A stretch of DNA of 64,000 nt. Origin: Pseudomonadota bacterium. Lineage in GTDB: Bacteria > Pseudomonadota > Gammaproteobacteria > Burkholderiales > Thiobacillaceae. The notes below the pieces were generated by a model. It was not told the DNA's origin and ran no database searches. It saw nothing but the letters and a program-made list of their open reading frames with translations. Below, piece after piece: positions 40,439 to 42,537 of the stretch. The stretch is from contig JAKADY010000003.1 of the NCBI GenBank assembly GCA_021826065.1, positions 1 through 64,000 on the forward strand. The letters run 5' to 3'. Within the stretch, counting starts at the first letter, position 1. Each line of letters opens with the position of its first letter. A program made the position numbers and the translations under genes.

Positions 40439-40975
40439 TCAGTCCCGCACCGGCCGCTTGGCCAGCTTGCGCTGCAGGGTGCGCCGGTGCATCTTGAGCG
40501 CCCGCGCCGTGGCCGACAGGTTGCCACCATGTGCGGCCAACACGCGCTGGATGTGCTCCCATTCCAGGCGATCGACCGACAGCGGCGTCTCCTGTACCGG
40601 GACCTGGTCATCGCCCGCCTCGCGTCCGAGGGCGCTCAGGATCTCGTCGACAGTCGACGGCTTGGGCAGGTAATGGGTGGCCCCCAGCTTGATCGCCTCC
40701 ACCGCTGTGGCGATGCTGGCATAACCGGTGAGCAGCAGGATGCGCGCCTGCGGGGCCAGCGCGCGTAGCGGCGGGATGAGGGTCAGCCCCGAAGTGGTGG
40801 CCAGGCGCAGGTCCAGGATCACGGCGTCGAAGGCCTCGGTCTGTGCGCGGGCCAGCGCGGTTTCGGCATCGCCGGCGCAGACGACGCGATGCCCGCGGCG
40901 GGTGAGCGCGGTGGCCAGGCTGCGGGCGTAGACCGCGTCGTCATCGACCACCAGGATGTGCCAGGCGTCGGTCAT
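40439..40975 (-). CDS. regA: RegA/PrrA/ActR-family redox response regulator
   Basis: Response regulator of 178 residues. Receiver domain with phospho-acceptor Asp in DAVILDLRL (about 55), the switch Thr in LLLTGYAS and Lys in YLPKPST; a proline-containing linker; and a Fis-type HTH GNLSATARALKMHRRTLQRKL (about 149-169; given here as 20-residue core NLSATARALKMHRRTLQRKL), the hallmark of RegA/PrrA/ActR/RoxR. It would control respiratory, hydrogenase or carbon-fixation genes according to redox state. It overlaps regB by 4 bp. Confidence 0.88.
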   Translation of the reverse strand: MTDAWHILVVDDDAVYARSLATALTRRGHRVVCAGDAETALARAQTEAFDAVILDLRLATTSGLTLIPPLRALAPQARILLLTGYASIATAVEAIKLGATHYLPKPSTVDEILSALGREAGDDQVPVQETPLSVDRLEWEHIQRVLAAHGGNLSATARALKMHRRTLQRKLAKRPVRD

Positions 40976-42309
40976 CGGCCTGCCTCCAGAGGGATCTCGG
41001 CGCGCGCCAGTACCCCACCACCGGCCCGCTCCGCCAGCGTGAGCCGGCCGCCCAGGCGTTCCAGGGCGGCGCGGGCGAGATCCAGGCCGACGCCCCAGCC
41101 GGGCGCCTTGCCGCCCAGGCCCGGGCCGGCGTCGGCGACCTCCAGACGCAGGCGCCCACTCTCGGCGCTCGCCGTGAGTGAGATACCGGCCGGCGAGGCC
41201 GCCTGCGCGTTGTTGAGCAGAGTCATGAGCACGGCCTCCAGCATGGGGTCGTCCTCCACCGTCGGTAGCGTCTCGGGCGCGTTGATGGTCACGCGGGCCT
41301 GCGGGTGCATCAGCCCCCAGCGCTCGACGCAGCGGTCTATCCATCGCCGCGCCGGCAGCGGTGGGCCGGCGTATGCCTCGCGGGCGCGGGCGGCCTCGGC
41401 CAGGCGGGCGAGCACGGCCTCGACGCGCTGCAGCTGACCATGCATCAGACCGAGACTGGGGACCAGCTCGTCGTCGCCGGCGTAATCGGCGCGCAGCTCG
41501 TCCAGGGTGAGCCGCACCGAGGCGAGCGGGGTGGCCAGCTCGTGCGCGGCGGTGGCCGCCTGCAGGCCCAGGGCGAAGAGCTGTTCGTCGCGCAGGCGCT
41601 GCTCGCGGGCGGCGGCCAGCTCGGCATCGCGGCGGCGCAGGGCGGCGGCGAGCGCCCCGGTGAAGGCGGCGACCAGGGCGGCGGTGAGCAGGAAATTGAG
41701 CCACATGCCGCGCAGGTGCAGGTCTACCGCGGTGGCATCCGGGAGTTGCACGGCCAGGGGGTGGTAGTGGGACATCAGCAGGGTATAGAGTGTGGCCACC
41801 CAGGCGGCCAGCGCCCAGGCTAGGGCGGGCGTCAGCAGCACGGCGCCGAGGATGAGCGGCACCAGCAGCAGCGAGATGAAGGGGTTGGCATAGCCACCGG
41901 TGAAATAGACCAGGGCGGCCAGCACGGCTGCGTCGATGGCGAGCTGAAGCGCGGTGGCTGTCTGGCTGAGACCCAGACGGCGCCGGCCCAGGCCCCAGAG
42001 CAGGGCCGCCAAGTGTAGGCCGAGCAGGGCGCCGAGGGACGGCCAGGGTAGCCGGGCACCCAGCCAGACGTCGGCGAGGACGAGCAGCACCGTCTCGCCG
42101 CTCAGGAGCGCCGCCCGCACCCACAACAGCAGGCGTATCGCTGCCTCGGGGGCATGAGCGACTGCGGCGGGCGGTGTGGTTGAACCTAAAAACCTCAGTT
42201 GACCGCTCCTTTGGTCTTGTAAGGGTCTGACGCTGCACACGATTCTGCCCTCGATTGCCCTCACACATAAGGTGAGACCGCTACGCGTCCGGCTTTCGGC
42301 CGCGTTCAA
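40972..42309 (-). CDS. regB: RegB/PrrB-family sensor histidine kinase, 5' end altered
   Basis: Membrane histidine kinase with six predicted helices (about 60-225), the RegB quinone-site motif GGYANPFISLLLVPL (about 148-162), H-box ATAAHELATPLAS, N-box MTLLNNAQAAS, and G boxes VADAGPGLGG. The position of the redox-active Cys of RegB seems to be Val in QRVEAVL. The open frame begins at ATG 42309 inside an inverted-repeat element, which supplies residues 1-42; family similarity begins about residue 57 (AIRLLLW). The native start may be lost, or one of CTG/TTG/GTG codons near residues 60-64. Confidence 0.82.
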   Translation of the reverse strand: MNAAESRTRSGLTLCVRAIEGRIVCSVRPLQDQRSGQLRFLGSTTPPAAVAHAPEAAIRLLLWVRAALLSGETVLLVLADVWLGARLPWPSLGALLGLHLAALLWGLGRRRLGLSQTATALQLAIDAAVLAALVYFTGGYANPFISLLLVPLILGAVLLTPALAWALAAWVATLYTLLMSHYHPLAVQLPDATAVDLHLRGMWLNFLLTAALVAAFTGALAAALRRRDAELAAAREQRLRDEQLFALGLQAATAAHELATPLASVRLTLDELRADYAGDDELVPSLGLMHGQLQRVEAVLARLAEAARAREAYAGPPLPARRWIDRCVERWGLMHPQARVTINAPETLPTVEDDPMLEAVLMTLLNNAQAASPAGISLTASAESGRLRLEVADAGPGLGGKAPGWGVGLDLARAALERLGGRLTLAERAGGGVLARAEIPLEAGR

Positions 42310-42322
42310 CTGAGGTTTTTAG
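42186..42322. mobile_element. 137-bp MITE-like element with 17-bp terminal inverted repeats
   Basis: CTAAAAACCTCAGTTGA (42186-42202) and its exact inverse TCAACTGAGGTTTTTAG (42306-42322) bound a 137-bp segment; the match continues inward for four more bases with one mismatch. TA occurs at both outer ends, compatible with a TA target duplication as in IS630/Tc1-type elements, though this is inference. No transposase is encoded. It lies at the 5' end of regB. Confidence 0.65.
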
Positions 42323-42327
42323 CGTGA

Positions 42328-42345
42328 AAGTCGCTTGAGCGACTT
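42328..42345. repeat. inverted repeat AAGTCGC-N4-GCGACTT
   Basis: Perfect 7-bp arms, 4-base loop, directly after the MITE-like element. Confidence 0.6.
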
Positions 42346-42355
42346 CTCGAAGCTC

Positions 42356-42376
42356 CCCTCGCCCTCTGGGCGAGGG
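42356..42376. repeat. inverted repeat CCCTCGCCC-N3-GGGCGAGGG
   Basis: Perfect 9-bp arms with a 3-base loop, followed by GGGGGTGAGGG. Sequence of this style is a frequent dispersed intergenic repeat in beta- and gammaproteobacteria. Confidence 0.6.
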
Positions 42377-42391
42377 ACTGGGGGTGAGGGA

Positions 42392-42442
42392 AACGGACAT
42401 GGCTTTCATATTTCGGGGCGTCTTCTCAAAGACATGTCCGTT
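42392..42442. repeat. inverted repeat AACGGACATG ... CATGTCCGTT
   Basis: Perfect 10-bp arms at 42392-42401 and 42433-42442 separated by 31 bp. The sequence TTAGGTTGAAC just outside resembles, inverted, the GTTGAACCTAA at 42178-42188, so the two could delimit a larger composite repeat. Confidence 0.5.
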
Positions 42443-42520
42443 AGGTTGAACGTCGGTCGGTCGAGCCGGTCAGGTCTATGGCGGCATTTTAGCCGTCGGT
42501 CGTGCGGCCACGTGGCGCCC

Positions 42521-42537
42521 TGCGACAATCTGTCGCA
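42521..42537. promoter_or_regulatory. RegA/PrrA-like palindrome
   Basis: TGCGACA (42521-42527), spacer ATC, TGTCGCA (42531-42537). This fits the GCGNC-N5-GNCGC type of half-site arrangement described for RegA/PrrA. It lies between regB and the divergent PCuAC gene and may serve either. Confidence 0.55.

Follow-up and report, generated by a model that had tools for sequence, protein, structure and literature searches.

The regB gene in this Thiobacillaceae genome has been cut off from its ancestral translation start by a small mobile element, a MITE with a second repeat nested in one end, and its translation now probably begins within that element. The gene lies in the window, by which is meant the whole stretch of 64,000 nucleotides that was analysed. 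Comparison of the window with the regB loci of relatives and with other copies of the two repeats documents the insertion, its target duplication, the nesting, the loss of the old start and an intact kinase. The features of the region are collected in Table 1.

Table 1. Features of the regB start region, in order of position along the window.
Feature	Position	Strand	Basis
regB frame, 445 aa from TTG 42309; HisKA and HATPase_c domains	40972..42309	-	ORF, domain search
Candidate starts TTG 42126-42124 and GTG 42120-42118, first membrane helix, beyond the MITE	42118..42126	-	in frame
Target duplication, left copy, TTGAA	42180..42184		sequence; family duplication rule
IS1380-type MITE, short form, counted from terminal C	42185..42322		sequence, repeat matches, copy alignment
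Candidate start CTG in left terminal repeat, behind AAAGGAG	42196..42198	-	ribosome-site scoring; weak by control
GTG preceded by GAGGG within the MITE, candidate start	42238..42240	-	ribosome-site scoring; weak by random-codon control
Candidate start TTG in terminal repeat, without ribosome site	42307..42309	-	sequence, ribosome-site scoring
In-frame TAA in MITE end, bounding the regB frame	42319..42321	-	sequence
Repeat B, TTAG-bounded, hairpin-rich, nested in MITE right end	42323..42444		genome matches, alignment, boundaries
Displaced terminal G of the MITE	42445..42445		sequence; inferred from nesting
Target duplication, right copy, TTGAA	42446..42450		sequence
ATA at the position of the relatives' regB start ATG	42477..42479	-	alignment with relatives
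Retained -10-like box TAAAAT, 6 nt upstream of the old start	42486..42491	-	spacing as in 15/25 relatives
Palindrome GCGAC-N5-GTCGC, RegA-site-like	42522..42536		sequence; similar in 17/25 relatives

The ancestral arrangement can be read from the relatives, for which 26 loci (L196-L221) were gathered; L212, a partial alignment, was dropped to leave 25, and the weaker loci L222-L224 were not used. The same-genus relative G001 (L196) has an insert-free locus with, by eye, the same gene order as here (phoU, pcuAC, regB, regA, hslV), and its regB starts at an ATG 6 nt after TAAAAT. In 15 of the 25 regB loci a -10-like TANAAT is followed, at a distance of exactly 6 nt, by an in-frame ATG, and the palindrome GCGRC-N5-GNCGC is found upstream of the gene in 17 of them, as a raw count. 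A -10 box only 6 nt from the ATG suggests a leaderless mRNA, and on the strength of this spacing the ancestral regB was probably leaderless. Searches of the literature found nothing joining leaderless mRNA with RegB and RegA, and nothing joining RegR, RegA and RegB with GCGGC.

Measured against these relatives, the MITE is inserted 11 codons into regB, downstream of the ancestral start. When the flanks are joined without the insert, the frame of the old start runs open again as far as the kinase body. With the insert in place, the old-start frame reads through 12 codons and then ends at a TAA on the edge of the insertion, a stop which renders the old start useless. The initial annotation had allowed that the native start might have been removed, and rightly so, as that start is severed from the kinase and its ATG has become ATA. 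It had also laid the element exactly across the start of regB, which the position of the insertion contradicts, and had placed the only ATG of the frame in a terminal repeat. The regB frame in fact contains no ATG from the TAA at 42321-42319 to the kinase body; the terminal repeat has a TTG (42309-42307) instead, and an ATG does occur at 42268 but in another frame. The 42 residues which the element was said to add are correct if translation starts at this TTG, although the start codon named for them is no ATG. Comparison of regB starts in relatives, which had been recommended, found no terminal repeat at regB in the 25 loci. At L220 a single decayed end match, with 4 mismatches, lies several hundred bases from regB.

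Several codons of the regB frame are candidates for the present start, and the MITE contains a further standard start, GTG 42264, in addition to those in Table 1. From the MITE edge up to the first helix this frame has no ATG, GTG or TTG. The best ribosome-site duplexes are those of CTG 42198 (-8.0 kcal/mol) and GTG 42240 (-6.4 kcal/mol), but among 500 random codons of each kind 29 CTG and 69 GTG codons reach the respective values, so that the support from ribosome sites is weak. By eye, the AAAGGAG motif is common to four of the aligned MITE copies. The insert is predicted to fold more stably than shuffled sequences (z -4.9) with the two MITE ends paired, and CTG 42198 would thus sit hidden in a stem. 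No promoter-like site was found on the insert. It is likely that the N-terminus of RegB is MITE-derived.

It may be instead that no part of the protein comes from the MITE, with RegB starting at TTG 42126 or GTG 42120 and the element serving only as leader RNA. Both of these codons are in the regB frame, the stretch before the first helix is poorly conserved among relatives, and MITE copies elsewhere are found immediately upstream of genes which, by eye, seem to keep their own start. Against this, the ribosome-site scores at both codons are poor, and every aligned relative has residues before the helix. On this evidence a start beyond the MITE is considered somewhat unlikely, and a start within the MITE is preferred.

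The body of regB is intact and its evolution is not accelerated. The kinase domains are present, the protein aligns with its relatives over its length, and neither a stop nor a frameshift interrupts the 387 aligned codons. Relative-rate tests against G001 with four outgroups detect no excess change in the regB of the window (chi-square 1.59, 2.17, 0.02 and 0.19) and dN/dS is 0.227/0.625 over the 387 codons, both being measures which cannot separate the time before the insertion from the time after it. These results bear on a further possibility, namely that regB is decaying, with its start removed, little or no kinase made and regA expressed alone. The loss of the ATG and the stop at the insertion edge are in keeping with decay, but the uninterrupted codons, the intact kinase domains and the lack of acceleration speak against it and make it distinctly improbable, even though a recent event would look alike.

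The element itself had been described as 137 bp (42186-42322) with perfect 17-bp terminal inverted repeats, and the sequence confirms this, the repeat reaching 21 nt at 95%. The MITE at regB is however one base longer at each end, with a C at 42185 and the matching terminal G displaced to 42445. The end sequence of the family is CCTAAAAACC[G/T]CAGTTGA. At up to 3 mismatches the 17-mer end is found at just two sites in the window, where shuffles expect 0.01, and at 96 sites (46 + 50) in the 2.74-Mb genome, against 1 + 0 for a reversed control pattern. The genome is a 74-contig draft, and repeats of such a kind are often at contig ends. The search for further copies which had been proposed yields 41 in this genome (L001-L079), a count of paired ends which leaves out unpairable ones, many of them near contig breaks. 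Seven of the copies measure 133-137 bp, 33 measure 231-237 bp and one measures 346 bp. In the short form about 97 bp are missing relative to the long one, apparently from between two short direct repeats CCCGCYTTCGG (by eye); since short copies exist with both T-type and G-type ends, this deletion probably arose more than once. When the terminal C and G are counted, 30 of the 41 copies have an exact 5-bp target duplication and 6 have one with a single mismatch, and 40 of the 41 have WTNAW on one side or both. The element is thus short, multicopy and bounded by terminal inverted repeats, and is without a transposase gene. The earlier description of it as MITE-like is borne out by these copies, by the target duplications and by an autonomous partner with the same ends.

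The partner was identified in another bacterium (L135:445-2078), where matching ends, the right one with mismatches, lie 1634 bp apart within the duplication ATGAT. It encodes a 513-aa DDE transposase, which passes the Pfam DDE_Tnp_1_4 threshold (63.2 against 34.7). The best NCBIfam model of this protein is IS1380, at 130.6 bits against a cut-off of 180, and a score below the cut-off suggests a divergent subgroup. On a Polaromonas plasmid an element whose ends are similar, and whose length is about 1630 bp, has a transposase 50% identical to that of L135 and, by eye, the target duplication TTAAA. The MITE resembles the IS1380 family in its ends, which start CCTA, in its AT-rich 5-bp target duplications and in the DDE_Tnp_1_4 transposase of its autonomous relative; unlike IS1380 insertion sequences, the MITE copies here carry no gene. 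Judged by its ends, duplications and partner, the element at regB is probably an IS1380-type MITE. Neither an autonomous element with the ends of the MITE nor a match to the L135 transposase protein was found in its own genome, and in 61 genomes, own included, this protein has just partial matches, in two. With no matching transposase in the genome, the MITE copies may be stranded or moved by something unseen. The sole IS1380-family transposase gene of the genome, L257 (G000:C8:19544-20809), belongs to an element whose ends differ by eye, reading CCTGAATCCGTGG.

A repeat nested in the MITE end, here called repeat B, is absent from the initial annotation. It is about 122 bp long and has 42 matches in the genome, the window copy included. 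Among 20 copies fetched, again including that of the window, it starts after TTAG in 11 of 17 scorable left sides and ends with TTAG in 14 of 19 right sides. At regB its left boundary is the MITE's own TTTTTAG, and beyond its right end comes the G (42445) which the MITE lacks at its terminus, followed by TTGAA, as at 42180-42184. With repeat B taken as nested in the MITE end, the target duplication at regB is perfect, and on the sequence a MITE in TTGAA with repeat B inserted in its end accounts for every base. GTGAA was rejected as a decayed target duplication of the MITE, as it belongs to repeat B. It is highly improbable, and ranked behind nesting, that the MITE and repeat B moved jointly as one 261-bp module by one-ended transposition: TTGAA flanks the whole unit, the CCTAA at its right-hand outer end resembles the beginning of a MITE end, and the available text of one source describes modules of the IS1380 elements ISPme1 and ISEcp1 which carry neighbouring DNA by this route (PMC9330008), but repeat B forms a family of its own and has these boundaries at other sites too, the missing G lies exactly after repeat B as nesting predicts, and joint movement would still need repeat B in the MITE end beforehand.

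The nested repeat invites comparison with a known class. REP/BIME repeats are short, hairpin-rich and present in many copies, with the fixed boundary tetranucleotide GTAG. Repeat B is likewise short, hairpin-rich and multicopy with a fixed boundary tetranucleotide, but this is TTAG and not GTAG, and the three matches to Y1 (RAYT-type) transposases in the genome are unflanked by it. The suggestion that repeat B is the product of a local Y1 transposase was rejected, since no copy lies beside any of the three. A search of Rfam for repeat B as a known RNA gave no match up to E = 1.

The following course of events is proposed. A non-autonomous element with IS1380-type ends transposed into TTGAA, 11 codons into regB, duplicating five bases. 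The hairpin-rich repeat B inserted at TTAG in the MITE's right end, whether at this site or at an earlier location of the MITE, and the two together now part the promoter and the old start position of regB from the rest of the gene. The old start has lost its use and now reads ATA, the kinase body staying open and constrained. The mRNA most likely still begins at the old promoter and crosses 266 extra bases, and translation most likely begins inside the MITE, at GTG 42240 or at CTG 42198 behind AAAGGAG. A gene once without a leader would thereby have gained a long structured one, along with a short N-terminus encoded by the MITE. In this scheme we infer that the gene was originally leaderless, that transcription crosses the insert and that a new start is used. 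The account as a whole, from the insertion of the MITE and nested repeat B through the loss of the old start to translation from within the MITE, is on balance probable. A bolder and rather doubtful proposal is that this MITE subfamily carries an outward-facing start (AAAGGAG-N7-CTG, in the terminal repeat) able to rescue genes, and that at regB it would have turned a leaderless, probably RegA-controlled gene into one translated from a transposon behind a long folded leader.

Fusions of MITEs to genes are known from sequence surveys, and the regB case is a clear further example. The enterobacterial RU elements, in the available text of PMC2759123, are bacterial MITEs fused to genes, and in both cases a small mobile repeat has an open frame entering an annotated gene. 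Unlike the RU elements as described there, the MITE at regB is of another element family and has displaced a start region, that of regB, which was probably leaderless. At regB an insert, an exact target duplication and a nested repeat are seen together with a displaced start, in a gene which apparently still works. The case involves a global redox regulator whose start was probably leaderless, and bears on how genes regain translation once such a start is lost.

Other copies in the genome were considered as fusions and rejected. A 440-aa frame crossing the MITE copy at C34 is antisense to a CBS-domain gene (domain by reading), and outward frames at other copies meet several recognisable genes whose own ATG, by eye, lies beyond the element. 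At L023, L028, L064 and L075 MITE copies lie directly upstream of recognisable genes with their own ATG apparently kept (by eye), which suggests that the MITE may commonly insert into 5' leaders.

Among bacteria the MITE family, together with its IS1380-type partner, is widespread. The same ends are present in at least 115 stretches from other bacteria, often as short copies with 5-bp target duplications. A 235-base query around one copy gave no blastn-level match in plasmids, and a literature search by end sequence did not find the family, its sole match being an unrelated paper on the human Y chromosome. In a comparison between genomes, end matches number 93 in the own genome (G000), 45 in G002, 29 in G003 and 0 in the same-genus G001, and there are 36 in G056, which belongs to a different family. 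At one site in the own genome (L004, G000:C7:36571-37044) a head-to-tail pair of long MITE copies, separated by 8 bp, shares a TTTAA-type target.
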